From: Lachnospiraceae bacterium A4
Lineage (GTDB): Bacteria; Bacillota; Clostridia; Lachnospirales; Lachnospiraceae
Length of the DNA: 43,007 nt
Direction of reading: 5' to 3'
NCBI GenBank assembly: GCA_000403215.2
Contig: KE159527.1
Span: 779,751 to 822,757 of the forward strand
The notes under the pieces: model-generated
What the model was told of the DNA's origin: nothing
The model's input: only the letters and a program-made list of their open reading frames with translations
The model's database searches: none
Made by a program: the position numbers and the translations under genes
Shown: in pieces, positions 130 to 16,832 of the stretch
How the letters are laid out: every line of letters begins with the position of its first letter
Numbering within the stretch: position 1 is the first letter of the stretch

Positions 130-286
130 TTAGGCTGCATTGTCTGGTTTTGAAGGATGGTCAACTTCATAGCGTTTACAATGCTCCTGTGGTGTGATCA
201 TTTCAAACGGCTTATTATCCCTGAGCATGGCAAAAATGATGTTGCAGATTTTATGCATCACAGCCCCGACAGCCACATTTTTTTTT
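130..286 (-). pseudogene. Out-of-frame C-terminal tail of the IS110 transposase
   Basis: Reading with one A removed from the A9 run (278-286) gives KKKNVAVGAVMHKICNIIF and about 45 further codons ending at a TAA at 130-132. This is the normal IS110 C-terminal helix region (the family shows a VAxGAxxRK/MHKI-like segment and ends soon after). With this tail the transposase would be about 444 residues instead of 404. The tail has no start or ribosome binding site of its own. Confidence 0.75.
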
Positions 287-1465
287 CTTGCTCCTGCATT
301 TGTCGGTATAGTAACTATGAATGACTGGGTTTACGGGCATTTTCGTACCCCTATCAACTTTAAGGTTATTGAGTGCCGCCATATGCAGGATGCGTCTGGC
401 AAGGCTGGAACCCCTCTTGGACATATGTACCCTGTCCCCATTGAATTTGCCTGACTGTTTTACAGCAGGATCCAGTCCAAAGTAGGCATAAAGTTTTTTA
501 GGGGAAGAAAACAGTTCAAAGGAACCCATTTCTGCAATCAGCACAACTGCGCTCAGGAAACCTACACCCCGCAGGGACTGGATAAGGCAGATCTGGTTAT
601 GGATCGGTTTTCCCTGTAATCCATCCACTGCTTTATGGAGCTCTTCAAGTATGGAATCAAGATGTTTCTGGTACTCACGGTAAGTTTCTATATACAGCCT
701 GATTCGGAGGGCATTACTTGGGAGTGCACGTCCAAAAACAGCGGCGTCTTCTGCAGCGATAAAAATGGCCTCATATTTGGAGAGGGCATATTTTTCACCA
801 AAATGTGCAGTTTCCCTGATTGTTTTGACAATCTCGTCCTTTGCTGCGGCAAGCATGTCCGTAGCAAGGGGGTATGATTCAAGAAGTTTAAGGGAAGTCA
901 GTGTCGTGATTTTGCTGAATACCTGCAGGTATGCGGGAAAGGACACCTTAAGTTCCGCATTCAGTTTCAGGACAACAGCAGACTGCAGATCTTTGTAGTA
1001 ATAGTAGTCGCGCACCAGGTTCCGAAGGTCGATGATTTCGTCATCAGGGACGATAGAAGTCTTAAGAGAAGCATCAAGCCCAACCCTTGCTGCCTTTTTT
1101 GAATCAAATTTATCATTATGCAGTTTCCTTATGTTCGAATTTGTGCTATTCTTAGTAATGATAGGATTAATGACGGAGCAGTCAAAACCCTTATCATGTA
1201 GGAAGCACAGAAGCGGGATGTGGTATATCCCGGTAGACTCGAGGAAGCAGCGGCTTTTGAGAGAATACATTTCCTGTGCTTCCTTTATTTTTGTGACGGC
1301 GAGCTCCCGGGACTGCGGATCGGAATGTATGATCTTAAACGGCTTACCGGTAAGCGTGCCATTGGGGAGCATGATGGACATCCAGGTGAAATCTGCGCCG
1401 ACATCAAGTCCGACTGAGAGATAAGGTATGCAGTTAAGCATCTGAAGTACTTTCTGGTATTGCAT
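251..1465 (-). CDS. IS110-family transposase, DEDD recombinase, C-terminus frameshifted
   Basis: The protein matches IS110 transposases: an N-terminal RuvC-like DEDD domain (LDVGADFTW, then ESTGIY, then NDKFDSKKAARVGLD) and a C-terminal Tnp_IS116/IS110 domain (SLRGVGFLSAVVLIAEMG, then LYAYFGLDP, then the serine motif KRGSSLARR). I chose the ATG at 1465 rather than an upstream ATG at 1513 because a GGAAAGG ribosome binding site lies just before it and the extra residues are unlike the family. The frame ends at 251 after a lysine run encoded by nine A residues (278-286 on the plus strand). The expected family C-terminus continues in the next frame to 130. Either the copy is damaged or slippage on the A9 run makes the full protein. 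Confidence 0.85.
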   Translation of the reverse strand: MQYQKVLQMLNCIPYLSVGLDVGADFTWMSIMLPNGTLTGKPFKIIHSDPQSRELAVTKIKEAQEMYSLKSRCFLESTGIYHIPLLCFLHDKGFDCSVINPIITKNSTNSNIRKLHNDKFDSKKAARVGLDASLKTSIVPDDEIIDLRNLVRDYYYYKDLQSAVVLKLNAELKVSFPAYLQVFSKITTLTSLKLLESYPLATDMLAAAKDEIVKTIRETAHFGEKYALSKYEAIFIAAEDAAVFGRALPSNALRIRLYIETYREYQKHLDSILEELHKAVDGLQGKPIHNQICLIQSLRGVGFLSAVVLIAEMGSFELFSSPKKLYAYFGLDPAVKQSGKFNGDRVHMSKRGSSLARRILHMAALNNLKVDRGTKMPVNPVIHSYYTDKCRSKKKKCGCRGCDA

Positions 1466-1514
1466 GGTATATATCCTTTCCGGCAGGCATCCATTTCCAA
1501 AAGGCGGATACACA

Positions 1515-1715
1515 ACCTAGCGGCTTATACAGGTATAGCCTGGGGCTTCCCAACCAGCCAAAACATAAATCACCACCGAATGGACTGACAGACTTTCTAA
1601 GAGGTATGGCCAGTGGAAAACCACTGGTTCCCAAGGAGGAAACGTCAATGATCCTGCCTTCGATGATTATACCTCAATATTTTGTCTGGTGCATTAAGGA
1701 AACCTCAGACATGAT
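1515..1715 (-). ncRNA. Candidate IS110 bridge RNA in the transposase leader
   Basis: IS110-group elements transcribe a structured bridge RNA from the non-coding DNA upstream of the transposase; its loops pair with target and donor DNA. Here the leader has three local hairpins: 1522-1540 (GGC-TATAC with GTATA-GCC, one bulge), 1610-1627 (CCAGTGG, loop AAAA, CCACTGG) and 1684-1710 (GTCTG with CAGAC, extended by GT/AC across a bulge). No convincing open frame fills the interval. Position and hairpins are seen; the bridge RNA role is inferred from the family. RNA ends are guesses. Confidence 0.45.
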
Positions 1716-1799
1716 AAATCTTTTTATTGACAGCATCTGATGGTGGAAGGAATATTCCCCTTCAGCTATCTGTTTGACTTGTCTTTGTAACTTATTAAC

Positions 1800-1818
1800 T
1801 ATAGCTCTTGTTGCTATA
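1800..1818. promoter_or_regulatory. Inverted repeat just upstream of the integrase
   Basis: TATAGC and GCTATA form a perfect 6-bp inverted repeat around a 7-base spacer, ending 12 bases before the integrase ribosome binding site (AGGAGG at 1832). It could be an operator or a short leader hairpin controlling integrase expression. No clear -35/-10 pair is visible here. Confidence 0.3.
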
Positions 1819-1843
1819 TCATTATTATACTAGGAGGAATAAA

Positions 1844-3079
1844 ATGGAGAAGAAAAGAAATGCAAAAGGTGAAGGAAGTTTTACCGTTAATTCGGATGGA
1901 ACAGTAACTCACAGAAAAAGTGTTGGGTATAAGCCGAATGGAGGGCGTAAAGTATTAACAGTAACTGCATCTAGTAAAGCAGCTTGTATCAGAGAAATGA
2001 AAAAGAAAGAGGCAGCATGGAACAAACAGCAAAAGGCAGGAAGTATGACGACAGGAATTACAGTCGTAGAATTGTGCCAGATTCATTTGAATTATCAAAT
2101 GGATCAAGGAGAACTGAAAGCAAAGTCGATTGATCGCAGAGAATGTACCATTGAAAAACACATTGCTGATTATCCGTTGGGGAGAATGCAAGTACAGTCT
2201 GTTAAAGTGGCGGATATAGATACACATGTGACAGAACTAGTGCAGGAAAACAGATTATCAGCCTCATCTATAGAAAAAGTGGTGGATGTATTAAATGCGG
2301 CTTTCCATTGGGCAATAATTCGTGGGGAATTGGAGTTTAATCCAGTTGCGCCAATTAAGCCGACTTTGGTGAAACGTATTCAAAAAATGTGGCAGAAATC
2401 AGCAAATGAAGCTGATGTTGATGTTCTTTCGGTGGAGGAACAACAGGCGTTTGAAAAGGAGGCGTCTTTGATAAATCCTCATAATGGAGAAATGAAGTAT
2501 GCGGCAGGAATGTATGGGTTGCTGCTCTTACATACAGGTATGCGTTGCGGAGAAATGCTGGCATTGCGTTGGAAGGATGTTGACTGGAAGGAAGGCTATC
2601 TGACAATTGAGAAAAGTCGGTCTATGGCAAAAAACAGAGATAATATGGATGCCTGTAATAATAAATATGTGATGGTGGAAGGGACAACAAAGAATGAAAA
2701 AGCACGAAAAATTAAATTGACAGAGAAGGCATTAAACATTTTAAATCTTATAAAATTACATAGTCCCAGTAATTGTGATGAGGAATTGATCGTAAAGACA
2801 CGTACTGGGAATCCTAATACAGCAACCAATCTGGAACATAGGATGGTAACGATATTTAGCAACGCAGGATTGAAAGATTTATCAGGCGGGCTTCATATTT
2901 TCCGTAGGACGTTTGCAACCAGAATGTATGAAAAAGGTGCGCGTGTCAAAGAAATTGCAGCATACATTGGAGACTTGGAATCTACAACAGAACGGTATTA
3001 TATCGCCGTGCGAAAAAAAGTTAAGGAAGGAAACGGGGTTCATCAGGTTGTAATGGTCCCGGGGTCTGATAAAGGATAA
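1844..3079 (+). CDS. Tyrosine recombinase / integrase of an integrative element
   Basis: A 411-residue site-specific recombinase. Catalytic residues are visible: R234 in HTGMRCGEM, H351 and R354 in HIFRRTFATRM, and the nucleophile Y385 in TTERYYIAV. The N-terminus (KGEGSF...DGTVTHRKSVGYK) resembles the AP2-like arm-binding domain of phage and ICE integrases, followed by a SAM-like core-binding domain at about residues 60-165. I chose ATG 1844 because TAGGAGG lies 6-7 bases upstream; an in-frame TTG at 1808 has no such site. The gene points towards a tRNA 3' fragment about 900 bp downstream, the usual arrangement of an integrase near its attachment site. Base composition is AT-rich compared with the region after 6 kb. 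Confidence 0.93.
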   Translation: MEKKRNAKGEGSFTVNSDGTVTHRKSVGYKPNGGRKVLTVTASSKAACIREMKKKEAAWNKQQKAGSMTTGITVVELCQIHLNYQMDQGELKAKSIDRRECTIEKHIADYPLGRMQVQSVKVADIDTHVTELVQENRLSASSIEKVVDVLNAAFHWAIIRGELEFNPVAPIKPTLVKRIQKMWQKSANEADVDVLSVEEQQAFEKEASLINPHNGEMKYAAGMYGLLLLHTGMRCGEMLALRWKDVDWKEGYLTIEKSRSMAKNRDNMDACNNKYVMVEGTTKNEKARKIKLTEKALNILNLIKLHSPSNCDEELIVKTRTGNPNTATNLEHRMVTIFSNAGLKDLSGGLHIFRRTFATRMYEKGARVKEIAAYIGDLESTTERYYIAVRKKVKEGNGVHQVVMVPGSDKG

Positions 3080-3087
3080 ATTCTTTC

Positions 3088-3116
3088 TTGTGGAATGAGT
3101 GTTTAAAGTGTATAAT
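3088..3116 (+). promoter_or_regulatory. Promoter for the toxin-antitoxin pair
   Basis: TTGTGG (3088-3093), a 17-bp spacer and TATAAT (3111-3116) stand 38 bp before the antitoxin start, between the integrase stop and the antitoxin. This suggests the pair is transcribed independently of the integrase. Prediction from consensus only. Confidence 0.5.
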
Positions 3117-3154
3117 TTCATTATAAAGATTCATCTGACAGAAGGGAGAACAAT

Positions 3155-3436
3155 ATGGAGAGTGCAAAGATAGAAATCAGTGTTCCAAAAGAGATGATAA
3201 TATATGTGAACAGCAAGGATAAAAAGGAAGAGTTGAAACGGAATGCATTAATCCTATATCCTTATATAAAGGATCTGACAATTTCACATGGCAGAGCTGC
3301 TGAAATTCTTGGTATCAGGAAACTTGACTTAATTACATTATACAATGAAATAGGACTTCCCTATTTAAATATGGATATTTCAGAGGTTGAGGAGGATGTC
3401 AAAACATATCAAGCAATACAAAGGAGAATCAGATGA
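3155..3436 (+). CDS. UPF0175-type antitoxin
   Basis: A 93-residue protein that resembles UPF0175 family antitoxins: a short N-terminal strand (IEISVPKEM), a central helix-turn-helix-like segment (ISHGRAAEILGIRKLDLITL) and an acidic C-terminal tail (DISEVEEDV). In known loci this family is encoded directly before a DUF3368 PIN-domain protein, which is exactly the case here; the stop overlaps the toxin start in ATGA. The likely role is to bind and silence the toxin and to repress its own promoter. A GAAGGGAG site precedes the start. It is probably a stability module for the integrative element. Confidence 0.8.
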   Translation: MESAKIEISVPKEMIIYVNSKDKKEELKRNALILYPYIKDLTISHGRAAEILGIRKLDLITLYNEIGLPYLNMDISEVEEDVKTYQAIQRRIR

Positions 3437-3930
3437 TAGTAGTTTCGGATGCAACCCCTGTTATATCACTGTTAAAAATCAATCAGCTTAATTTGCTTCA
3501 TGGTTTATTTCAGGAGGTGTTAATACCACAAGCTGTATATGATGAGTTGACTTTAAATCCTGCATTTGAAAAAGAAGCTATACAGATAAAGGAATGTACT
3601 TTTATTACGAAAGTTGAGGTTGGACAGGAATCCTCTGTTAATTTATTCCAGCGGGTTACAGGATTAGACAGGGGAGAAAGTGAAGCGATTATTTATACAG
3701 ATAACGAAGGTGCAGATCTGATTTTAATGGATGAGATAAAAGGAAGAAAAGTTGCAGTACAGATGGGGCTTAATGTTATGGGAACTCTCGGTATTCTTTT
3801 AGAGGCATATGAGCAGAAGCTTTTATCTAGGGAAGAGATATTTTCTGGTCTGGACATTCTGAAAAATAGCAGGAGATTTATTAGTGAAGCGTTGTATAAA
3901 CAACTAATTGAAAAGATCAATAACCGTTAG
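3433..3930 (+). CDS. DUF3368 PIN-domain toxin (putative ribonuclease)
   Basis: A 165-residue protein with the DUF3368/PIN layout: N-terminal VVSDATPVISLL carrying the first metal-binding aspartate, a middle GLDRGESEAII with conserved acidic residues, and ILMDEIKGRKVA with another aspartate, followed by GTLGILLEAY, which is characteristic of the family. PIN proteins are Mg-dependent RNases; as the partner of the upstream UPF0175 protein it is the predicted toxin. The frame is intact and the acidic residues are retained, so it is likely active. It is the last gene of the integrative element before the attachment site. Confidence 0.82.
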   Translation: MIVVSDATPVISLLKINQLNLLHGLFQEVLIPQAVYDELTLNPAFEKEAIQIKECTFITKVEVGQESSVNLFQRVTGLDRGESEAIIYTDNEGADLILMDEIKGRKVAVQMGLNVMGTLGILLEAYEQKLLSREEIFSGLDILKNSRRFISEALYKQLIEKINNR

Positions 3931-5665: not shown

Positions 5666-5694
5666 TTGTCATATGCGCCAAATGCAATTATAAT
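5666..5694 (+). promoter_or_regulatory. Promoter of the macrodomain-HD-Wadjet gene run
   Basis: TTGTCA (5666-5671), a spacer of exactly 17 bp and a perfect TATAAT (5689-5694) lie 34 bp before the first gene of the run. From here to 16,832 all genes are on the plus strand, with gaps no larger than 30 bp. It is the best promoter candidate for the whole cluster. Confidence 0.65.
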
Positions 5695-5728
5695 GAAAAA
5701 TACAGAATCAGCAGGGAAGGAAGTTCCA

Positions 5729-6154
5729 ATGAAACGGGGAAAATTGAGACGAATTTCGGTGGACGGTAGACGTTATCGGTGGAATTACATGTATGACGAT
5801 ATGGATTTTTCCAATTATCCGTATTCTTATTATGTATTTGTGCCAGAAGAAAACCAGCGGTTCAAAATTAGAGTTTATTTTACAAAATATGAGCCACAGA
5901 TGAAGCTGGATGCATACTTGTATAGAGGGACACTCTGCCAAGATAGCGGAGAACAGGCAGTGATGAATTTGTGCAGACCCTTTTTTGCAGCGCAGGTAAT
6001 CAAGTATGTTTTTGCACATTGCTGTCAGGACACAGATGTGGGAGAGGTTGAAATCAGAGATGGGGAAGCGATCTTAGAAAAGCTGGGATATTCAGATTTT
6101 TATCGGATATGCGATGCAAGAGATTTTGAAGATAGCCATAAAGCGACTGTTTAG
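5729..6154 (+). CDS. Hypothetical protein, first gene of the Wadjet-containing run
   Basis: A 141-residue soluble protein that I do not recognise. It begins MKRGKLRRISVDGRRYRW and is rich in aromatic residues in its first half (YMYDDMDFSNYPYSYYVFV), with a beta-rich look, then a helical C-terminal half. No signal peptide, membrane segment or cysteine motif is evident. I chose ATG 5729 because GGGAAGGAAG lies just upstream and the promoter at 5666-5694 leaves no room for the longer frame. The next gene starts 27 bp downstream. Its position at the head of a run that includes a macrodomain protein and a complete Wadjet system makes it a candidate accessory gene, but there is no direct evidence for that. 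Confidence 0.65.
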   Translation: MKRGKLRRISVDGRRYRWNYMYDDMDFSNYPYSYYVFVPEENQRFKIRVYFTKYEPQMKLDAYLYRGTLCQDSGEQAVMNLCRPFFAAQVIKYVFAHCCQDTDVGEVEIRDGEAILEKLGYSDFYRICDARDFEDSHKATV

Positions 6155-6181
6155 AAAAACAAAATGTAGAGGAGAGAGCCA

Positions 6182-6694
6182 ATGATACAGCTTGTGAGGG
6201 GAGATATTACAAAACTTACCAATGTGGACGCCATTGTCAATGCTGCAAACAGCAGCCTGCTTGGCGGCGGAGGCGTTGACGGGGCGATACACAGGGCAGC
6301 AGGACCAGAGCTGCTGTTTGAGTGCCGTCTGCTTGGCGGCTGCAAGACAGGACAGGCGAAGCTGACCAAAGCATACCGGCTGCCATGCAGCTATATTATT
6401 CACACGGTTGGACCTGTCTGGAACGGCGGAAGCCATAACGAGGACAGGCTGCTTGCGGACTGTTATCATAATTCACTCAAACTGGCAGCAGAGCATGGGA
6501 TCAAAAGGATTGCCTTTCCTTCTATTTCTACAGGGATCTATGCATTTCCAGTCGAGCGGGCAGCAAAAATTGCGATAGGAACGGTCCGGCAGTTTTTGCA
6601 GGAAAATCCAGATTTGTTTGAGCAGGTTCTATGGGTGCTGTTTGATGAAAAGACGGAGGCTGCTTATCAGAAGGCGGTGTCAGATGGGCAGTAA
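6182..6694 (+). CDS. Macrodomain protein, O-acetyl-ADP-ribose deacetylase type
   Basis: This 170-residue protein is a single macrodomain of the MacroD/YmdB type. Seen motifs are GDIT (residues 7-10), [20 protein letters not shown] (15-34, with N20, N23 and D33 as expected active-site residues), the IIHTVGPVW strand and [12 protein letters not shown]. Family members hydrolyse O-acetyl-ADP-ribose or remove mono-ADP-ribose from acidic residues, and some act on nucleic-acid ADP-ribosylation. GAGGAGAG precedes the start. The next gene starts 11 bp before its stop, so translation is probably coupled. In this context it could serve metabolism or defence; the sequence does not decide. Confidence 0.92.
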
Positions 6695-7256
6695 AGATAG
6701 TTTGATTATGCTGTTGGGAATGCTCATCGTCGGCGGACCATACGCACTGCTGATCGCTGGCGGGCTGTTTGTGAATGCGAATGAAAAAAGATATATGGCA
6801 GCGCAGCGAAGCACGGGCAGGGACAAACAGCGCATGCTTGATTTTATGCAGATTGTGATGAAGGAATATTATGGGGATTATACATATGTGGCAGGGGGCA
6901 ACAGGATATCGACAGGCAGATATTCGGCGAACTATTATCCATATATTGTGGGCTTTAACGAGAAAGATCTGGTCATTATTTCTTATACTGCACGGAATGG
7001 CGCATTGATTTGCAGAAATGTTCTGCCGGTTGACTGGAACTGTATGCGTTTAAAATACCATGTTTTTTCGAAAGGTGTGAAGCTTATTTTGATACTGGGA
7101 AAAACGAAACTGCGGATTAAAGTCAACCGTGTTGTGATGTCAGACGGCTCGGAAAAATTTGATACGCCACTTGGCATTTTTCAGGAGAACGAGGTGGACA
7201 TGCTCATTATAAGCCTATTGCGGATGCAGAAAAAGACACGGACAGGAGTATCATAG
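6684..7256 (+). CDS. Membrane-anchored protein of unknown function
   Basis: A 190-residue protein with one N-terminal hydrophobic segment (residues about 6-24, [20 protein letters not shown]) followed by a basic, probably cytoplasmic domain with alternating strands ([19 protein letters not shown], then [17 protein letters not shown]), which might be a PH-like fold. I chose ATG 6684 over the upstream in-frame start at 6618 because the longer version would lie inside the macrodomain gene. It overlaps that gene by 11 bp and ends 4 bp before the next membrane protein, so the three are likely translated together. I do not recognise a family. Confidence 0.65.
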
Positions 7257-7260
7257 AGAG

Positions 7261-8166
7261 ATGTATCGAAGAACGTTAAAGACGATGCTCGTGGTTGTTG
7301 CATCGTGCGCTGGAATCAGCATTTTGCTTTTGGAGTTTATGTTTTGGTGCTTTGGGGAATGGCGCATTTGGATGGCGGCATTTCGCGAGCCGGTTGACTT
7401 GTTTTCATCTTCGAGTGATTTGACGCAGCTTGAGGAGCTCGATGTCGTCAGAGGAACAGTTCGAGTGTTAGGCGGAAGTTATTCGTATACATACGACAAC
7501 GGTATTCAGGATACCGCGTTTTATTTTGTGCTGCCAATTGATACTGCGCAGGAGACTTTCTATATGGGAATCCGGGAGACAAGGGGCAGAAAGGAGGATT
7601 TTCGCAAGCTGGCTGTGCGGTCTAAGCATGACGTAAAGCCAATGAGGATTGTTATGGGAAATCCTTGGGAGGATGACTTTTTGAAGCAGGAGGAACAAGT
7701 TTTAGGGGAGCCCATTAATATAGAAGGATTTGTTCAAAAAATGGATGAAAATCAATATCGGCGTTTTCTCACATGGCTGGAAAAATCTGGATATTACGAA
7801 CCTGAGCCGTCTGACAGACAGATAGACGAATCACAGATGAAACAGTTCCTTCCGTATTTTATTGAGGAGGCTGATATTGCGTATTGCCAAAAGGCAGCAA
7901 AGGGAGCGTGCCTTGCGGTTTTAGCAGGCATGATGCTGCTTGCAGGCAGCGCAGCGGCGGTGATTTTCCAGAAAAGACGGCGGGAAAGGCAGCAGTATGT
8001 GACCATTCACGGGACGGTCTATTTAAAAGCGCATTTAGAGCCAGTCAATGATCTGGTGATGAACATTGAGTTGCTGCTGGCTGTACAGGCACTCAGCAGG
8101 ATTACAGGGCTGGACATGACGGCGGCAGAAAAAGTGATCAGGCGCTGGGACCGGTATTGGTATTAG
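7261..8166 (+). CDS. Two-pass membrane protein of unknown function
   Basis: A 301-residue protein with a membrane segment near the N-terminus (residues about 8-30, TMLVVVASCAGISILLLEFM), a 180-residue loop with many strands and acidic residues, and a second membrane segment at about 215-238 (GACLAVLAGMMLLAGSAAAV) followed by RRRERQQYV and a C-terminal cytoplasmic tail. By the positive-inside rule the middle domain would lie outside the cell. It follows the preceding membrane protein by 4 bp, suggesting they work as a pair. I do not recognise the family and assign no function. Confidence 0.7.
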   Translation: MYRRTLKTMLVVVASCAGISILLLEFMFWCFGEWRIWMAAFREPVDLFSSSSDLTQLEELDVVRGTVRVLGGSYSYTYDNGIQDTAFYFVLPIDTAQETFYMGIRETRGRKEDFRKLAVRSKHDVKPMRIVMGNPWEDDFLKQEEQVLGEPINIEGFVQKMDENQYRRFLTWLEKSGYYEPEPSDRQIDESQMKQFLPYFIEEADIAYCQKAAKGACLAVLAGMMLLAGSAAAVIFQKRRRERQQYVTIHGTVYLKAHLEPVNDLVMNIELLLAVQALSRITGLDMTAAEKVIRRWDRYWY

Positions 8167-8196
8167 CGTATTGTGCTAGAAGGAGAATATTTGAAC

Positions 8197-8982
8197 ATGA
8201 AAATGAACAGACAGCGGGCGATCAAAGCATTTCAGGACTATACCAGTCACTATGACGTGAACGACGAAAAAGTAAAACTGAAAATAGATCACACATACAG
8301 GGTAAGCAGTCTCTGCCAGCAGATTGCAGTGCAGTCAGGTTTTGACAAGGACGAGACAGAACTAGCGTGGCTGACAGGGCTGCTGCACGATGTCGGTCGT
8401 TTTGAGCAGCTCAGGCGATATGGCACATTTATGGATGCGCAGTCCATCGACCATGCAGAGTTTGGCGCAGATATTTTATTCAAAGAAGGAAAAATCAGAG
8501 ATTACATCGAGGATGCTTCGGAGGATGAACTGCTCGAAAAGGCAGTGCGGTGCCACAGCGCGTACCGCGTGCCTGCGCAGTATACGGCGCGGGAGAAAAA
8601 ATTTGCAGACCTGCTGCGCGATGCAGATAAAATTGATATTCTAAAGGTTAATATTATCGTGCCGCTCGAGGAGATTTACAACGTGACCACGTATGAGCTC
8701 AAACACTGTCAGGTGACACAGGAGGTTATGCAGGCATTTTATGAGGAGCACGCAGTGCTTCGAAGCTTGAAAAAGACGCCTGTTGACAATGTGGTTGGCC
8801 ACATTTCACTGGTGTATGAGCTGGTCTATCCCATAAGCTGCAAGCTGGTGTCCGAGCAGGGGTACTTGGACCAGCTTATGAATTTTCAGTCCGAGCTGCC
8901 ACAGACCAATGCGCAGTTTGCAAAGATTCGGGAGAAGATGGCGGCGTATTTAAAACAGAAAGAGATTAGCATGATTTTATGA
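8197..8982 (+). CDS. HD-domain metal-dependent phosphohydrolase
   Basis: A 261-residue protein with the classical HD signature: H32 in IDHTYRV, H64-D65 in LLHDVGRFE, a further H86, H120 in VRCHSAYR and D144 in RDADKIDIL. These residues bind metal in HD hydrolases acting on nucleotides or cyclic nucleotides; the substrate cannot be told from the sequence. I chose ATG 8197 (AAGGAG 11 bp upstream) over an upstream GTG at 8173, which would leave no ribosome binding site. The stop codon overlaps the jetD start (ATGA at 8979), so the HD protein and JetD are translationally coupled. HD proteins are common in immune loci, but this could also be a housekeeping enzyme caught in the run. Confidence 0.9.
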   Translation: MKMNRQRAIKAFQDYTSHYDVNDEKVKLKIDHTYRVSSLCQQIAVQSGFDKDETELAWLTGLLHDVGRFEQLRRYGTFMDAQSIDHAEFGADILFKEGKIRDYIEDASEDELLEKAVRCHSAYRVPAQYTAREKKFADLLRDADKIDILKVNIIVPLEEIYNVTTYELKHCQVTQEVMQAFYEEHAVLRSLKKTPVDNVVGHISLVYELVYPISCKLVSEQGYLDQLMNFQSELPQTNAQFAKIREKMAAYLKQKEISMIL

Positions 8983-10031
8983 AAAAAATACATCTCGATG
9001 CCCTTTCGGCAAAATACAACATATCCGAATACAAAGCGCTTTACGCCAAAATCATCGCGCTGCTTCAAGACAACAAAATAAAGCCGGTAAAAGCGTCAGG
9101 AACCAATGGAAAATCGCCAGCCTTATACAAGGAATACTGGATTATAGAAGAAAAGCAGGATATGTCCAGCTATCTAAATGAACTAAACTATGCGCTGGTG
9201 CCGTCGATTTCGACAGACTATTACCGCGCGCACATCAGCCAGTACCTTGAGGACAGACCTTGGGTGCTGCTGCTAAATGACTATCTCAAACAGGGCAATT
9301 TTATGACACAAATGTCAGAAAATGAGCGCAGCTTTGACATCTGGCACCGGGAAAAGTTCTTGAAGCAGGAGCAGGGAAAAAAGATTTTAAAGCGCTGCGG
9401 ACTAGAGACAGGGGTTTTAAATTATTACAGAACGACCGAGCCGGTTGCGTATTATTGTGCGACGCGGCAGACACCGCAAAAACTGCTGGTCATCGAAAAT
9501 AAAGATACGTTTTACAGTATGCGCAGGTGTTTGATGGGCAGCCAGCCGCTGAGAAGTGCATCTGGTAAAAACAGGACGGACAGCGCGCTGCGGACAATCT
9601 GCGGGGAACCGGTCGGCACGTTGATATATGGTGCGGGAAAAGGAATCATTGCGGCATTTTCTGATTTGGAACTCAGCGGTGAGCCCTACATGACAGCGCC
9701 GGAGAACACGGTTCTTTACTTTGGTGATCTGGACTATGAGGGAATTGGCATCTATGAACATTTTGCGGCGGAGTATGGGGAACAGTATGACATTGCGGTT
9801 TTTAAAAATGCCTATGTGCAGATGCTTGCAAAGGCAAAGTGCATTGGCATAGACTGCCTTCCGAGGACAAAGGAGGGGCAGAACCGAAAACTTGATCATG
9901 TGTTTTTTAGCCAGTTTTCACAGGCACAGCAGGACAACATCAAAGAAATACTGGAATGCGGCAGATATATTCCGCAGGAGATTTTGAATATAGAGGATAT
10001 GCAGTCAACTGATGTACAGTATAAGGAGTAA
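8979..10031 (+). CDS. jetD: Wadjet type II nuclease subunit JetD (Toprim, DUF2220)
   Basis: A 350-residue protein. The C-terminal half is a DUF2220 Toprim domain: the Toprim glutamate is E173 in LLVIENKDTF and the DxD pair is D250/D252 in YFGDLDYEGIG. The N-terminal part has winged-helix character (residues about 15-55). JetD is the Topo VI-like nuclease of the Wadjet complex, which cuts small circular DNA after the SMC motor has extruded it. All metal-binding acidic residues are present, so it should be active. It lies first, before jetA, whereas jetD is last in the commonly described jetABCD order. Only 2 bp separate it from jetA. Confidence 0.9.
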   Translation: MKKIHLDALSAKYNISEYKALYAKIIALLQDNKIKPVKASGTNGKSPALYKEYWIIEEKQDMSSYLNELNYALVPSISTDYYRAHISQYLEDRPWVLLLNDYLKQGNFMTQMSENERSFDIWHREKFLKQEQGKKILKRCGLETGVLNYYRTTEPVAYYCATRQTPQKLLVIENKDTFYSMRRCLMGSQPLRSASGKNRTDSALRTICGEPVGTLIYGAGKGIIAAFSDLELSGEPYMTAPENTVLYFGDLDYEGIGIYEHFAAEYGEQYDIAVFKNAYVQMLAKAKCIGIDCLPRTKEGQNRKLDHVFFSQFSQAQQDNIKEILECGRYIPQEILNIEDMQSTDVQYKE

Positions 10032-10033
10032 AA

Positions 10034-11668
10034 ATGCAGTATGAATTTTTAAAGCAGTTTTCCAAAAGAATGAAGCATGTCGGCATGTACGCACTCCTTC
10101 TGCAAAACAGCATGGCAAAACAGACGTGGAAGCAATACGGATTTATGAAGGCGGACGAACAGATTAATGTGATTTTTGCGGTTATGCTGTATATTATGGA
10201 GCAGTCCCTGCGGGAAGTGCACTGCACGATGGACGATATAGGGGCGTACATTGATACCCTCAATGCCAGTTATTTTCAGAAAAGCATGTCCTATGACGAC
10301 TGCAAGAAGCTTGGGGATTTTGTGGTGAACGTGATTCTGTCCAACGAGGGCAGAGCGATGTACTTTGAGGGGTATGATTTCGACAGCAGGATATACAAAT
10401 CCATGAATATCAGCTATATTGCAAATCGTGTCGTCTATGTGGAGGAGGGGGTCAGGCGCACCACCTATCATTTGACGGAGGACGGCTATAATCTGATGCT
10501 GTCCACGCTTGAAATCGAGAACAATATGAAGCTCACAATCCATGAGATGATCTTTAAGATGCATCTGGAAAAGCAGAGCTATGACAAAGCAGTTGACGAA
10601 GTCAAGAACATATTTAATTATATGCGGATACAGCTTCAGAAAATAGAGGAGGCAATGCTGCGCGTGCGGCGCAATGCGCTGAGTTATTCAGTTGCAGACT
10701 ATGAGGCGCTGATGCTGGAAAATATGGAAACCATCGGTGACACGAAGGAAAAGTTTACAGGATACCGCGAGATGGTCCGGCTCAGGGCATCTGAGCTCGA
10801 ACAGCAGAATATCAATGTGCGCAAGCTAGATGCCAAGGAGGAGGAAAAACTGGAAAACCTGCGCAGTATTGAACGCTATCTGAACCGCTCGCTCGACGAG
10901 CACCAGAAGATTTTAAACCTGCATTTTGATTTGAAATTACTGTATGACAGGGAATTGCAGTCACTTGCCCAGATGTCGCTGATTCAGCGGTTCTCCATTC
11001 GGACAGAACTCTATGACAAGCTCTTAGAGCAGCCGCAGTATTTGGAAAATATTGATCTTTTTTTCAGACCGCTGTTTCACCAGCAGCTTCCCAAAATCTA
11101 CAATCTAAACAAATGTATGGAGCTGCAGCGCCCTGTTAGGAAAAAGGCGGAGGAGGACACCGCAGAGCTTCTTGACTTTGACGAGAGACAGTGGCAGGAG
11201 GAGTTGGAACGCAAAAAGAAAAAGAGACTCCAGCAATATGAGAACAGTCTGGCATTCATTATAGATGCAGCACTCGACAAAGGCAGCCTGTCCATGAGCG
11301 AACTAAAAGGGCTGTTGGAACAAAATCGGGCGGCGCAGGAAATCTGCATTCCATCTATTGATGTGTTCAAGGAGATTATGGTGGAACTGATGAAAAACCG
11401 TGAAATCTGCATCGAGACACTGCGAAAAGAAAAAAGTGAGTTTATTACCGAACAGGCAAACGATTTTCAATTAAATGACATGCTGCTCTCACTGACAGAG
11501 AAACACGCAGGAAATGGCAAAGACAGGAGTGTAATTCAGAAAATCTGCACAGAGCGCATGCACGATGGAACGGTGGTCGCGTTTGAGCGCGTGCCGGACG
11601 CTTCTGGAAACGAACGGACAATCCGGTGTACAAATGTTGTGATCCGCATTGAGCAGAAGAAACTATAG
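10034..11668 (+). CDS. jetA: Wadjet type II subunit JetA (DUF5716, kleisin-like)
   Basis: A 544-residue soluble, largely helical protein. It fits the Wadjet type II JetA family by size, by its position directly before a 242-residue JetB-like protein and an SMC-like ATPase, and by its content: an N-terminal winged-helix-like part (YEFLKQFSKRMKHVGMYALL), a long helical middle (residues about 165-320, with heptad-like stretches such as EEKLENLRSIERYLNRSLDE) and a C-terminal wHTH-like part (residues about 405-500). JetA is the kleisin that bridges the SMC heads, comparable to MukF. GGAG stands 7 bp before ATG 10034. I recognise the family mainly from context and the N-terminus, so I am slightly less sure than for JetC and JetD. 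Confidence 0.85.
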   Translation: MQYEFLKQFSKRMKHVGMYALLLQNSMAKQTWKQYGFMKADEQINVIFAVMLYIMEQSLREVHCTMDDIGAYIDTLNASYFQKSMSYDDCKKLGDFVVNVILSNEGRAMYFEGYDFDSRIYKSMNISYIANRVVYVEEGVRRTTYHLTEDGYNLMLSTLEIENNMKLTIHEMIFKMHLEKQSYDKAVDEVKNIFNYMRIQLQKIEEAMLRVRRNALSYSVADYEALMLENMETIGDTKEKFTGYREMVRLRASELEQQNINVRKLDAKEEEKLENLRSIERYLNRSLDEHQKILNLHFDLKLLYDRELQSLAQMSLIQRFSIRTELYDKLLEQPQYLENIDLFFRPLFHQQLPKIYNLNKCMELQRPVRKKAEEDTAELLDFDERQWQEELERKKKKRLQQYENSLAFIIDAALDKGSLSMSELKGLLEQNRAAQEICIPSIDVFKEIMVELMKNREICIETLRKEKSEFITEQANDFQLNDMLLSLTEKHAGNGKDRSVIQKICTERMHDGTVVAFERVPDASGNERTIRCTNVVIRIEQKKL

Positions 11669-11677
11669 GAGGAGAAA

Positions 11678-12406
11678 ATGGCATACGAAATAGAAGAAAT
11701 ACGCCTCAGCCAGCAGATATTTTATTACCTTCTTGAGCACTTTGAGCTGCGGGAGGAGGCATCAACCGGGCTTTACAGGGCATATGTGGAAAATGAGCAG
11801 GTGCAGCTTCTGGTCAAGAGTCAGGGAGAGGAGGCGCGCAGCAGCATTGAGCGGTACGGCGACGTGATTTATCTGATTCCAAAAGAGGAGAATGTTTTCT
11901 TGGGCTTTTCGAAGGCAAAATTAAAGGAAATACTCTGTAAATCGGGCGGTACAGACAAGGATTTTTATCTGTCGCAGTTTGTGATTCTGACACTGCTGTC
12001 AGAATTTTACGACGGTCAGGGCGCAAGTGCCAAGTCCAGAGATTATATTCGTGTAGGAGAGCTGCAAAACTGCGTGACGGATCGTCTCAAAAATGGTGTT
12101 GAGAACACCTCCGACGAGGAGGAGGAAAAGAAGGGGCTGGCTTTCCGCAATATGCAGGAGGCATATGAGTCGCTCAAATCCGATGAGCGCGGCTCGCGGG
12201 CACGCACGACAAAGGAGGGATTTCTTCACCATATTTTTGTGTTTCTCGAGAATCAGGGCTTAATAGAATATGTTCAGGAGGACGAGATGCTCAAGACAAC
12301 AAAGAAGCTCGACAACCTGATGGACTGGAAACTGCTGAATCAAAATAATTACCAGAGACTCTGTAAAATATTATCGGGAGACAGCCAGGGAGGCGGCGAT
12401 GAGTAA
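11678..12406 (+). CDS. jetB: Wadjet type II subunit JetB (DUF6063, KITE/MukE-like)
   Basis: A 242-residue acidic protein located between JetA and the SMC ATPase, as expected for JetB, the MukE-like KITE subunit that binds the kleisin. Visible parts are an N-terminal helix (IRLSQQIFYYLLEHFELREE), a strand pair (VIYLIPKEENVFLGFSKAKL), an acidic linker (SDEEEEKKG, about residue 145) and a C-terminal winged-helix-like end (GFLHHIFVFLENQGLIEYVQ). TAGGAGG lies just upstream of ATG 11678. The gene overlaps jetC by 8 bp, which implies coupled translation and fixed stoichiometry. Confidence 0.85.
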   Translation: MAYEIEEIRLSQQIFYYLLEHFELREEASTGLYRAYVENEQVQLLVKSQGEEARSSIERYGDVIYLIPKEENVFLGFSKAKLKEILCKSGGTDKDFYLSQFVILTLLSEFYDGQGASAKSRDYIRVGELQNCVTDRLKNGVENTSDEEEEKKGLAFRNMQEAYESLKSDERGSRARTTKEGFLHHIFVFLENQGLIEYVQEDEMLKTTKKLDNLMDWKLLNQNNYQRLCKILSGDSQGGGDE

Positions 12407-15400
12407 AATAAACGCAGTGAGATTGATTAATCTGAACTATAACAACAATACTATGCGCGTCAGCGACGACATCTTCCAGATGCAGGGGCGCAGTACGCTG
12501 ATGTCATTGCAGAACGGGGGCGGCAAGTCTGTGCTGGTGCAGATGATGACCGCCCCGTTTGTACACAGGCGGTTCTGGGACGCGAAGGACAGACCGTTTG
12601 AGAGCTACTTTACGACCAGCAAACCGACTTTTATCATGGTGGAGTGGCAGCTGGACCGCGGCGCGGGCTACTGTCTGGCGGGCATGATGGTGCGCAGAAG
12701 CCAGCTTTCAGAGGAGGACGAGGACAACCGTCTTGAGATGGTCAATTTCATCTGTGAGTACAGCGGCAGATGTGCGCAGGATCTTTACCATATGCCCGTG
12801 GTTGAGAAAAAGAATAAAGAGCTTGTCTTAAAAAGCTACCGCGAGTGCAGACAGCTTTTTGAGACCTACAAGAAAGACCACGCACTTAAATTTTTCTGTT
12901 ATGACATGAACAACAGCGCCCAGTACAGACAGTATTTTGAGAAGCTTGCAGAGTACCAGATCTATTACAGGGAGTGGGAAAATATTATTCGAAAGATTAA
13001 TCTGGAGGAATCGGGGCTCTCTAAGCTTTTTTCGGACTGCCGCGATGAAAAAGGACTCATAGAAAAGTGGTTTCTGGATGTGGTGGAGAGCAAACTCAAC
13101 AAAGAAAAAGACCGCATGAAGGAATTTCAGAGCATCATAGAGAAATACATCATTTCTTACAAGGCAAACCAGTCGAAGATCGAGCGCAGAAATACCATTC
13201 GCCAGTTTAAGGAGGACGCGGTGGAGATTGCCGCCTGCGCCGAGGAGTACAAGCTTGCAACGGACGCGGCGGGGGAGCAGGAAAACAATATTGCAGGTTT
13301 TCGCACTGAGCTAGCGCGCATGGAGACAGCGCAGAATGACGTGAAAAACGCGCTGCTTGACGACAAGAACTCCTGTTCCGATGAGCTAGCGCGCATCGAG
13401 TATGAAAAATATTCTTATGAAATACAATGCCTGACGGATACGCTTTTGTTTCATGTGGGCAACCGTGACATGATTGGCATGGAGCGTGACGCCTTGGAGG
13501 AGGAGACACAGCAAATCGAGACGCTGCTGCACAAAATCGAGCTGTCGAAGCAGAACGCGCAGGTTCAGGAGCTCCTGCAGGACGAGCGCCTTCTCAAAGA
13601 ACGGCTCAAGGTGCTGCATGAGGGGGAGGGGCAGCTCGAACCTGAACGGAGGGCGCTTGGAAATACGCTTTGCATGTATTATGAACAGCTTGCCGCCGGG
13701 CTTGCAATACAGATTCAGCAGAATGAGAGCGCGTATCAGCAGGAGGCACAAAAGCAGCAGGAGTTTCTGGACAGGCAGCAGTGGCTGGACAACACGATAA
13801 TCGGGCTCATCACACAAATCAGTACCTGCAAGGAACGAATGAATGGTTTTGGCCGCATTGAGGACAGCTTTCAGGAGGAATTTCAGGAAACGTTCGTCCG
13901 CAATATTGTGGGCGAATACGAGCCGGGGTTTTTGGAGATCAAAGGCAGGCAGTATCAAAAGGAGCTGGAGGAGCACACAAGAAGCTGTACTGCGCACAAA
14001 AAGCAGCTCGACGAGGCAAACGAACGGCAAAAGTCCCTGCTGCGCGATATCGAGGACCGGCAGCAGGAACGAATCCGTCAGGAGTTTATGCTGGCGGAGC
14101 TGGAACAGGAGCATACAGAATTAGAGCAGGAGTTTGCAGAACGCCTTGTCATGATGCGCTACTTCGATCTTTCTGAAAGTGAGCCGTGGAATATGGACAA
14201 GCTTCTTGCCGCTGCCGACAGGAAACTTGCCGTGTGCGAGCAGGCAAAACGTATGCTGGAAAAAGAGGAGGACACGCTGCAAAAGGAGTATGTGCGCATC
14301 ACGCAGGGAAAAGTGCTCGAACTGCCAAAAGAGCTGCTTTCGCTGTTTGGCAGACTCGACATCAACATCGTTTACGGCATGGACTGGCTGCGCAAAAATG
14401 GTTACTCCGCGCAGAAAAATGAGGAGATTGTGCGCAGACAGCCGTTTCTGCCATATGCCTTGGTTTTGTCAAAGCAGGATTTGAACACGCTTGCTGCACA
14501 CGACAGGGAAGTCTACACCTCCTTTCCAGTGCCCATCATACTGCGCGAGCAGCTTGAGGCGTGCATGGCATCACAGGTAGGCGGACTGCTCGCGCTGCAA
14601 GACGTACATTTCCTGATGTGGTTTAATGAAAAGCTGCTTGACGAGGACGCGCTGCGCCGGCTGGCAGCGGAGAAGGAACAGCAGTTACAGGACAAAAGGA
14701 AACAGACCGCGACGCGCAAAAAGGAGTATGAGGAGTATTTTGAAAAAAGGGAGCGCTTGAAAAATCAAAGGCTCACGCGGGAAATATACGACAAAAACAT
14801 GACACAGATGTCAGAAATGAAAGATTTGTTAGAAGCGCTCACCAAAACGCTGCACACATTAAGGGCAGATGCCCAGAAGAATGAGGAGCTGGTCGGCAGC
14901 CTGACAGCCACGATTGCCGCCGAACAGCGTTTGATCGAAAAGCTGCAAAAACGTGAGAAAGCCTTCGCCCTGTTTTGCAAGGAATATGAAAGCTATGTAG
15001 AATGTATGGCGCTGATGAATCGCAGCCAAAAAGAAAAGGAGCGGCACGAACAGAACCGCAAACTTGTCAAAGATGCAGCCGAGGCAGGCAGGGAGCGCAT
15101 GAAAAGTATTGAGCGCGCGCTGGCAGAGCTTGACAGAAGAAATCTGGACTATAAAAAGAAGTGCAGCGTTTATGAGCCATACCGCACGGCAGCGTCTCCT
15201 GCTGTGGAATCAGAATCAAAATCAGAAGAAATCCCGTTGCCGGCGTCCATACATGAGAAAGAGGCACGGTTTGAGGCAATTACCTCCAAAATGTCCATGC
15301 AGGTGCAGGATTTGGAAAAGCAGCTGCAAAAAACTGCTGTAACACTGAACAGACAGCAAAGTGAACTCGAACGGCTTTCCAAAAAATACCGCCTTGCAGA

Positions 15401-16832
15401 ACAGGACTGGGCGGGGCTCATCTATGATGAGAAGGAGGAGACACACCAAGAAATACTTCTCGAGGACAGGCGCAGTAAATGGAAGCTCAAAGACAGGCAG
15501 TGGAATGAGGAGGACAAGGAAACAGCCGTCTGCCAAAGCCGCATCAGTGCCAAAAAGAAGGATATGCTTGAAAAGTGCGGCACGGAGGAGCCGCTTGCAA
15601 AAGACCAAATCAAAACGACAGAATTTGCGTCGGCAGTCAATCAACTGCACTTTCGCCTCCAGAATATCGAGGAGGACATCAAAAAGGTGGACCAGCGCCT
15701 GAAGGCACTGGGCGAAAATCTGAGTACCCTCGCGGCGTATGAGGATTTTGTGTGCCGCCATGAGCCGCAGTGGGAGACGGATATCTCACTGCTCGGCACC
15801 AAAGAGCTGCGCGATTTCCAAGGACGGCTGCTGCGCGATTACAGGAATCTGAAAGAAGCGTGTGCGCACAAAAAGAGCCGGCTGACCGCCTGTCTCTACA
15901 AGCTGATGCAAAAGGATATTTACCAAGAGGATTATTACAGAAAACCGCTTGATTCCATGCTTTCTCTGACGGACAATGCGGTCTTGACGCTGGCACAGCT
16001 TGATACGACGCTGCAATCTTATGACAGCCAGATGGAAAAGCTTGCAGTGGACATTTCCCTTGTGGAGAAGGAGCGTTCGCGCATCACAGAGCTGCTGGGG
16101 GAGTACTGCCAAGACGTGCACCGCAATCTGGGACAGATTGACAGCAATTCAACCATCACCATTCGGGAAAAGCCGGTCAAGATGTTAAGATTACAGCTTC
16201 CGGACTGGTCAGAGCAGGAGGGAATGTACCGTTTAAAACTGGGCGATTTCCTCGATGAGCTGACAGCGAAGGGGATTGAGATCTTGGAGAAAAATGAGAA
16301 TCCGCAGGAATATTTTGGCACGAGAATCACGACGCGCAACCTTTATGACAGCATTGTCGGAATTGGCAATGTACAAATAAAATTATATAAAATCGAGGCA
16401 CAGCGCGAGTATCCGATTACTTGGGCACAGGCAGCAAAAAACTCTGGCGGTGAGGGATTTTTGACTGCATTTGTCCTTCTTTCCAGTCTGCTGTATTATA
16501 TGCGCCGCGACGAGACGGACATCTTTGCAGACCGCAACGAGGGCAAGGTGCTTGTCATGGACAATCCCTTTGCCCAGACCAATGCCGCGCATCTGCTCAA
16601 GCCCCTGATGGATATGGCAGACAAGATGAACACGCAGCTCATTTGTTTTTCAGGGCTGGGCGGCTCTTCCATCTATGAACGGTTTGACAATATTTATGTG
16701 CTCAATCTTGTCGCGTCGAAGCTGCGCGGCGGTATGCAGTATTTACGCGGAGAGCATCTGCGCGGCACGGAGGAGGAGCTGCTCGTGAGCGCCCAGTTCG
16801 AAGTGATTGGGCAGGAGAAGCTGGTCTTTTAA
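12399..16832 (+). CDS. jetC: Wadjet type II SMC-like ATPase JetC
   Basis: A 1,477-residue SMC/MukB-like motor. Seen: Walker A QNGGGKSV (K43, S44) after an N-terminal LINLNYNN strand; two long coiled-coil arms rich in E, K, Q and R (residues about 210-640 and 740-1240); a compact hinge at about 640-735; the ABC signature NSGGEGF (S1349-E1352); and Walker B VLVMDNPFAQTN with D1388. The residue after the Walker B aspartate is N, where SMC proteins usually have the catalytic E. JetC extrudes DNA loops and presents small circles to JetD. The frame is intact over its full length. It starts inside the end of jetB. Confidence 0.94.
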   Translation: MSKINAVRLINLNYNNNTMRVSDDIFQMQGRSTLMSLQNGGGKSVLVQMMTAPFVHRRFWDAKDRPFESYFTTSKPTFIMVEWQLDRGAGYCLAGMMVRRSQLSEEDEDNRLEMVNFICEYSGRCAQDLYHMPVVEKKNKELVLKSYRECRQLFETYKKDHALKFFCYDMNNSAQYRQYFEKLAEYQIYYREWENIIRKINLEESGLSKLFSDCRDEKGLIEKWFLDVVESKLNKEKDRMKEFQSIIEKYIISYKANQSKIERRNTIRQFKEDAVEIAACAEEYKLATDAAGEQENNIAGFRTELARMETAQNDVKNALLDDKNSCSDELARIEYEKYSYEIQCLTDTLLFHVGNRDMIGMERDALEEETQQIETLLHKIELSKQNAQVQELLQDERLLKERLKVLHEGEGQLEPERRALGNTLCMYYEQLAAGLAIQIQQNESAYQQEAQKQQEFLDRQQWLDNTIIGLITQISTCKERMNGFGRIEDSFQEEFQETFVRNIVGEYEPGFLEIKGRQYQKELEEHTRSCTAHKKQLDEANERQKSLLRDIEDRQQERIRQEFMLAELEQEHTELEQEFAERLVMMRYFDLSESEPWNMDKLLAAADRKLAVCEQAKRMLEKEEDTLQKEYVRITQGKVLELPKELLSLFGRLDINIVYGMDWLRKNGYSAQKNEEIVRRQPFLPYALVLSKQDLNTLAAHDREVYTSFPVPIILREQLEACMASQVGGLLALQDVHFLMWFNEKLLDEDALRRLAAEKEQQLQDKRKQTATRKKEYEEYFEKRERLKNQRLTREIYDKNMTQMSEMKDLLEALTKTLHTLRADAQKNEELVGSLTATIAAEQRLIEKLQKREKAFALFCKEYESYVECMALMNRSQKEKERHEQNRKLVKDAAEAGRERMKSIERALAELDRRNLDYKKKCSVYEPYRTAASPAVESESKSEEIPLPASIHEKEARFEAITSKMSMQVQDLEKQLQKTAVTLNRQQSELERLSKKYRLAEQDWAGLIYDEKEETHQEILLEDRRSKWKLKDRQWNEEDKETAVCQSRISAKKKDMLEKCGTEEPLAKDQIKTTEFASAVNQLHFRLQNIEEDIKKVDQRLKALGENLSTLAAYEDFVCRHEPQWETDISLLGTKELRDFQGRLLRDYRNLKEACAHKKSRLTACLYKLMQKDIYQEDYYRKPLDSMLSLTDNAVLTLAQLDTTLQSYDSQMEKLAVDISLVEKERSRITELLGEYCQDVHRNLGQIDSNSTITIREKPVKMLRLQLPDWSEQEGMYRLKLGDFLDELTAKGIEILEKNENPQEYFGTRITTRNLYDSIVGIGNVQIKLYKIEAQREYPITWAQAAKNSGGEGFLTAFVLLSSLLYYMRRDETDIFADRNEGKVLVMDNPFAQTNAAHLLKPLMDMADKMNTQLICFSGLGGSSIYERFDNIYVLNLVASKLRGGMQYLRGEHLRGTEEELLVSAQFEVIGQEKLVF

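Follow-up and report, generated by a model that had tools for sequence, protein, structure and literature searches.

Why does a gene for an HD-domain phosphohydrolase run directly into a Wadjet operon, and does the one serve the other? In Lachnospiraceae bacterium A4 (NCBI GenBank assembly GCA_000403215.2, contig KE159527.1, positions 779,751 to 822,757 of the forward strand; these 43,007 nucleotides are hereafter the window), the phosphohydrolase gene, called HD below, shares four bases with jetD, the first gene of the Wadjet set. A sequence-only reading of the window had suggested that HD, together with a macrodomain gene and a pair of membrane protein genes upstream of it, might be an accessory set of the Wadjet. 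Our analysis points to a different history. We consider it probable, at roughly three in four, that a type III Wadjet arrived behind an HD gene that was already resident, has been inherited there within one clade, and rides on the HD transcript.

The HD gene and the type III Wadjet behind it

The Wadjet genes form a complete set of four contiguous genes in the order jetD-jetA-jetB-jetC (8979-16832). All four proteins matched best, and over nearly their whole length, the PADLOC models of type III Wadjet (JetD3 E 5e-118, JetA3 E 3e-259, JetB3 E 2e-125, JetC3 E 0); the type I and II models were matched by JetD alone, at E 3e-5 or weaker. These best matches rule out type II, and the label given in the sequence-only reading was wrong on this point. 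The jetB protein also matched PF19539 (Pfam). JetC carries GGGKS at 40, NSGGE at 1348 and VLVMDNP at 1384, which we take to be SMC/ABC ATPase motifs; no part of this protein fits the strict Walker A pattern GxxxxGK[ST]. In JetD, residues E173, D250 and D252, presumably those of the Toprim domain, were invariant in 13/13 aligned sequences. Conserved acidic Toprim residues are a feature of JetD according to the available portions of the literature (PMC10586767).

The acidic residues of JetD and the ATPase-like motifs of JetC are thus shared with type III Wadjets. What differs is that the jetD of the window is overlapped by the preceding HD gene, an arrangement seen, within the sets searched, only in one clade of the window's genus. 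Ratios of nonsynonymous to synonymous substitution rates (dN/dS) were computed for eight genome pairs. Between the window and its sister genome G172 (G and L numbers are our handles for genomes and loci), they were low for jetD (0.15), jetA (0.07), jetB (0.06) and jetC (0.12), as well as for HD (0.10). The ratio of 0.33 obtained for HD between G176 and G178 is not reliable, as the automatic start codon precedes the conserved one; dS reached saturation in the comparisons of HD with G180 and G185, and of orf57, the first gene of the run, with G152. Judged from its sequence, the type III Wadjet of the window looks intact.

Two further observations concern the Wadjet genes. JetD residues ~187-206 (window 9537-9596) are very variable in length among close relatives, ranging from near-absent to longer than in the window. 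Directly 3' of jetC in G151 lie genes for a C5 cytosine methylase and a Vsr endonuclease (L093 69-1669), which suggests a defence island.

The HD protein matched PF01966 (Pfam, E 2e-11). Seven of its residues (H32, H64, D65, H86, H120, D142 and D144), which we assume to be the H...HD...D metal ligands, were invariant in 19/19 aligned sequences. Its AlphaFold model had a predicted local distance difference test (pLDDT) score of 91.8, and Foldseek matched it at probability 1.0 to the structures of SP1746, BH1327 and YqeK. The Foldseek matches were weak otherwise, with a best E of 0.022, none at or below 0.001, and template modelling (TM) scores of 0.35-0.48 for the first four. Hence, HD has in common with the YqeK/SP1746 and YedJ phosphohydrolases an HD fold with metal-binding residues, but the likeness is generic only, at 13-18% identity for these first four matches. 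A search of the HD sequence against the PDB gave no relative at E 0.01. The assignment of a substrate from structures was dropped because the PDB held no sequence relative and the fold matches were only generic. A constant neighbour of HD was also sought as a clue to its function; 37 family genomes from outside the genus have HD, and the loci of 16 of them were compared, with no neighbour common to all.

Distribution and history of the junction

The genus was represented by 38 genomes, the window included, nearly all of them drafts in many contigs. HD is near-core in this set, being found in 33 of the genomes, and jetD was found in 17. Conservation of the HD-jetD junction, which the sequence-only reading had singled out for checking, held within this set: in 11/17 genomes with jetD, HD is the adjoining 5' gene and shares the strand of jetD (G000, G151, G159, G163, G165, G168, G170, G172, G175, G176 and G178). 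The gaps between the two genes, which carry some error as automatic starts are approximate, were -20, -4, -4, -4, -1, 9, 19, 27, 66, 115 and 266 bp, the longest belonging to G178 (266 bp) and G170 (115 bp). In the remaining six jetD genomes (G152, G153, G161, G162, G166 and G171), HD and jetD are found on separate contigs with other neighbours. Meanwhile, 22 HD genes do not adjoin jetD, 16 of which come from genomes without a jetD match, and the ligand residues were intact in all seven HD sequences aligned from such genomes.

The conservation did not extend beyond the genus. In a 150-genome sample of the family (window included), HD homologues were detected in 38 genomes, jetD in 13 and both in seven, and none of the 12 other jetD genomes displayed the junction. 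For six of these 12, no HD homologue was detected at E 1e-15, evidence against Wadjet needing HD in general; in the other six, HD is either 1.8 Mb distant from jetD (G046) or located on a different contig. Public genomes scanned with a JetD alignment yielded 149 relatives, and the best 80 were kept as loci, 75 of which have hits to all four jet genes, PADLOC typing covering the window only. HD was upstream of jetD in 10 among these best 80 of 149, all of them matching genus genomes already counted. The 70 junction-less loci (five from genus genomes) yielded no HD homologue, their upstream flank measuring at least 2 kb in 66 and at least 8 kb in 50.

Two marks of a Wadjet accessory were looked for, namely recurrence of the junction in independent lineages and absence or degeneration of HD where Wadjet is missing. 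In the sets searched, the junction proved to be confined to one genus, and HD is present in 16 genus genomes that have no jetD match. On sequence evidence, the pairing does not appear to belong to Wadjets in general. Among the matches listed in a search of the Wadjet literature, mostly the opening parts of abstracts, no description of an HD-Wadjet junction was found. Spread of HD-jetD by mobile elements was considered and rejected: no relatives of HD or JetD were found in viral contigs, and a search of plasmids, made with JetD only, gave one remote hit (26.6%), on a plasmid of Pontibacillus; the phage collection lay outside these searches.

In the midpoint-rooted rpoB tree (33/38 genomes; G154, G162, G177, G179 and G185 were left out), all 11 junction genomes fall on one side of the root, which holds 19 genomes. 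The junction copies group in the HD, jetD and jetA trees, with 3, 3 and 2 changes of state, respectively; the HD tree comprised 31/33 sequences, as G167 and G177 were masked or partial. These gene trees, in which many branches are weakly supported and gain is not distinguishable from loss, fit a single origin of the junction followed by descent and later losses or moves. The junction is old, since nucleotide identity of rpoB among its 11 carriers falls to 82.7%.

The surroundings of the junction are less constant. The gene 5' of HD varies among junction loci (among them the gene for a DUF6709 membrane protein, the macrodomain gene and glutamine synthetase III). The gene 3' of jetC, where it is seen, varies as well, with only G172 matching the window. 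Among the 10 junction loci that show both genes, jetD and jetA are split by more than 1 kb in four (G168, G175, G176 and G178). The inserted material is diverse. G176 and G178 carry an ABC-2 type transporter cassette in sense orientation, to which G176 adds a radical SAM gene, and the insert of G168 is antisense and encodes an ABC protein, a transglutaminase-like protein and a methyltransferase. These blocks sit at L097 3430-7857, L100 9376-11812 and L095 3294-8167.

Inherited neighbourhood or dedicated partnership

Based on these findings, we postulate that a complete jetD-jetA-jetB-jetC operon came to lie directly 3' of a resident chromosomal HD gene in an ancestor of the clade, and that this arrangement was then passed on by descent within one clade of the genus. 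The conservation of the junction in 11/17 genomes and its unusual tightness make it probable that one transcript covers HD and Wadjet in members of the clade. The jet genes are thus probably expressed from the HD transcript, and translation of jetD is probably coupled to that of HD through the ATGA overlap of the window. HD would be an independent enzyme of housekeeping type, a phosphohydrolase probably acting on nucleotides, and the genes 5' of it would be patchy passengers rather than Wadjet parts. The Wadjet itself would act as known, JetABC extruding circular DNA and JetD cutting it, as described in the available portions of two papers (PMC10586767, PMC12287153), which also place earlier tests of Wadjet in B. 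subtilis. Gene order, Wadjet type, distribution, placement in the trees and low dN/dS are observations; co-transcription, translational coupling, the direction of events and the independent role of HD are inferred.

Several observations weigh against this history. The rpoB tree requires at least five changes of adjacent state, so that losses or moves must be assumed beside a single origin. HD occurs in 17/17 genus genomes with jetD versus 16/21 without it (p 0.053), and in the family sample in 6/12 versus 31/137 (p 0.073). The distance between HD and jetD is at most 30 bp in 8/11 junction loci, which are related to each other, versus 7/57 same-strand loci without HD (Fisher p 1e-4); these gap and co-occurrence tests treat loci and genomes as independent, ignoring relatedness. 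Finally, the HD-jetD junction persisted although jetD and jetA had opened in 4/10 of the same loci.

Because of this tight spacing and persistence, a dedicated partnership is kept as a minority reading. HD would in that case be a clade-specific Wadjet accessory working with JetD, perhaps through control of a nucleotide signal or of the nucleotide pool around JetD activity, and the pair would be kept by selection. The junction is indeed retained in 11/13 genus genomes whose jetD genes form one clade, and it spans the rpoB divergence given above while both flanks differ. Set against this are the HD genes retained, with intact ligands where aligned, in the genomes without a jetD match, the jetD genes of the same clade that G152 and G153 carry away from HD (the Wadjet of G152 looks decayed), and the family genomes that have jetD and no HD homologue. 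We regard such an accessory role as fairly unlikely. The more specific proposal that the HD of this clade is a dedicated and translationally coupled partner of JetD, whose nucleotide-processing step tunes or licenses type III plasmid cleavage, is unlikely.

The 5' neighbours of jetD at other loci bear on the same alternative. Among 69 loci without HD in which an upstream gene is visible, this gene is on the same strand as jetD in 57 and within 150 bp in 35, so that these Wadjets commonly have a same-strand gene close by on the 5' side (57/69 compares with a local same-strand baseline of 207/315, p 0.003). A gene unrelated to HD displayed a comparable 5' association. This ODP/flavodoxin gene, which we assume to be of flavodiiron type, directly precedes jetD on the same strand in four loci with JetD identities of 62-71%, and is the second gene upstream in two more (L163, L177, L185, L188, L194 and L197; Pfam was run on 2/6). 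Inherited 5' neighbours of jetD thus seem to arise without HD.

A different alternative is that the closeness is positional only, with jetD transcribed from its own promoter inside HD and the neighbours unrelated in expression. A 9/12 promoter-like site does lie inside HD (8633-8660), the single plus-strand one in the region 7900-9100 around the junction, and in G168 the antisense block parts HD-jetD from jetABC, meaning that jetABC there would need a promoter of its own. However, in G178 and G170, the relatives with the longest gaps and the only ones scanned, the surroundings of the junction were free of plus-strand promoter-like sites, and four-base overlaps occur in 3/11 junction loci. No plus-strand terminator-like site was found in the window between 7900 and 9100. 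We hold a purely positional closeness to be quite unlikely, and favour the inherited, co-transcribed arrangement.

The upstream genes and the meaning of the junction

The gene run to which HD and the Wadjet belong is listed in Table 1. As the sequence-only reading had described, it keeps to a single strand with short gaps and includes the four-base overlap of HD and jetD; the nine genes from orf57 to jetC share the plus strand, and no gap exceeds 30 bp. Its extent was underestimated, as the contiguous genes continue beyond position 12406 to the end of jetC at 16832.

Table 1 Genes and signals of the run leading into the Wadjet operon (gap, distance in bp to the next gene)
Feature	Position	Strand	Basis	Gap
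Promoter-like site TTGTCA-17-TATAAT	5666-5694	+	consensus scan, 11/12 bases matched	
orf57, 141 amino acids	5729-6154	+	open reading frame	27
Macrodomain protein (macro), O-acetyl-ADP-ribose deacetylase type	6182-6694	+	PF01661; NF001664	-11
mem1, ~190 amino acids	6684-7256	+	open reading frame; hydropathy	4
DUF6709 membrane protein	7261-8166	+	PF20456; hydropathy	30
HD-domain metal-dependent phosphohydrolase (HD), 261 amino acids	8197-8982	+	PF01966	-4
ATGA stop/start overlap, HD/jetD	8979-8982	+	sequence	
jetD, type III Wadjet Toprim nuclease	8979-10031	+	PADLOC JetD3	2
jetA, type III (kleisin)	10034-11668	+	PADLOC JetA3	9
jetB, type III (KITE)	11678-12406	+	PADLOC JetB3; PF19539	-8
jetC, type III SMC-like ATPase	12399-16832	+	PADLOC JetC3; motifs GGGKS, NSGGE, VLVMDNP	

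The site at the head of the run, which had been called a promoter, is plausible as such and is best described as promoter-like: just one other hit of 11/12 turned up in the 16 kb scanned, and promoter-like sites there numbered 43 versus 25.6 in shuffled sequences. Plus-strand sites of 9-10/12 are also present inside the run, the best at 6909-6938, together with four weak plus-strand terminator-like sites (6378, 6747, 7500 and 9433); terminator-like sites totalled 17, versus 13.6 in shuffles. No internal site of either kind appears strong enough alone to split the run.

The gene content upstream of HD is heterogeneous. The orf57 protein had no match in Pfam, PADLOC or NCBIfam and has five homologues in genus loci, 66-78% identical. 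The macrodomain protein matched PF01661 (E 1.3e-47) and scored above the cut-off of the NCBIfam equivalog NF001664, so that it shares the full domain with O-acetyl-ADP-ribose deacetylases; it differs in its setting, as it adjoins HD, patchily, and does so also where no Wadjet follows. The mem1 protein has one N-terminal hydrophobic segment by hydropathy and no Pfam match. The DUF6709 protein matched PF20456 (E 1.9e-9) and has two hydrophobic segments; its dN/dS against G172 (0.40) exceeds those of HD and the jet genes.

The distribution of these genes separates them from the Wadjet. A macro homologue lies 5' of HD on the same strand in 11/33 HD loci, six with and five without an adjacent jetD (G152, G154, G155, G180 and G185), and the last four of these genomes have no jetD match at all. 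All five upstream genes occur in G152 in the order orf57-macro-mem1-DUF6709-HD, followed by other genes, with the Wadjet on another contig. In G151, the junction is intact while the macro frame is broken and mem1 was found as a fragment only. DUF6709 is present in 7/38 genus genomes, away from HD in two (G155 and G185), and the junctions of G163, G159, G165, G176 and G170 lack the full upstream set in the stretches available, the contigs of G176 and G159 ending less than 4 kb upstream. The macro gene of G180 (L110 9067-9564) is 91% identical to that of the window and the adjoining HD 77%, which suggests that macro moved laterally.

The sequence-only reading had itself named common occurrence of HD or macrodomain genes without Wadjet in close relatives as evidence against its proposal, and this is what the genus displays. 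The macro and membrane genes fail as a Wadjet accessory set; what survives of the extended module is the conserved, tight and probably co-transcribed HD-jetD junction of the clade. That the entire run orf57-macro-mem1-DUF6709-HD-jetDABC forms one accessory module is highly improbable and was rejected on the distribution of macro, DUF6709 and HD among genus loci, despite the single strand and short gaps in the window, the same order with other genes inserted in G178, and a probable macro-DUF6709-HD-jetDABC order in G172, where the contigs break within DUF6709 (HD follows a truncated DUF6709 at the beginning of one contig, and macro and the first part of DUF6709 are on another).

Further 5', the window at 251-3930 falls in a stretch of lower G+C (0.35-0.43) with a putative IS110-like transposase, a site-specific integrase and a gene pair resembling an antitoxin and a PIN toxin, all named from the look of their sequences. 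Homologues of this pair (53% and 57%) lie directly 5' of jetD in G162 (L129).

Collectively, these findings illustrate that a tight, operon-like junction can resemble a defence accessory and nevertheless be a neighbourhood passed down by descent. Type II and III Wadjets have been little studied, type I having had most of the work so far according to the available portions of the literature (PMC10586767). The clade described here supplies natural controls, with HD beside Wadjet, HD alone, and Wadjet away from HD, which suit testing whether type III Wadjets recruit partners. If HD turned out to be necessary, it would represent a new layer of control on Wadjet.

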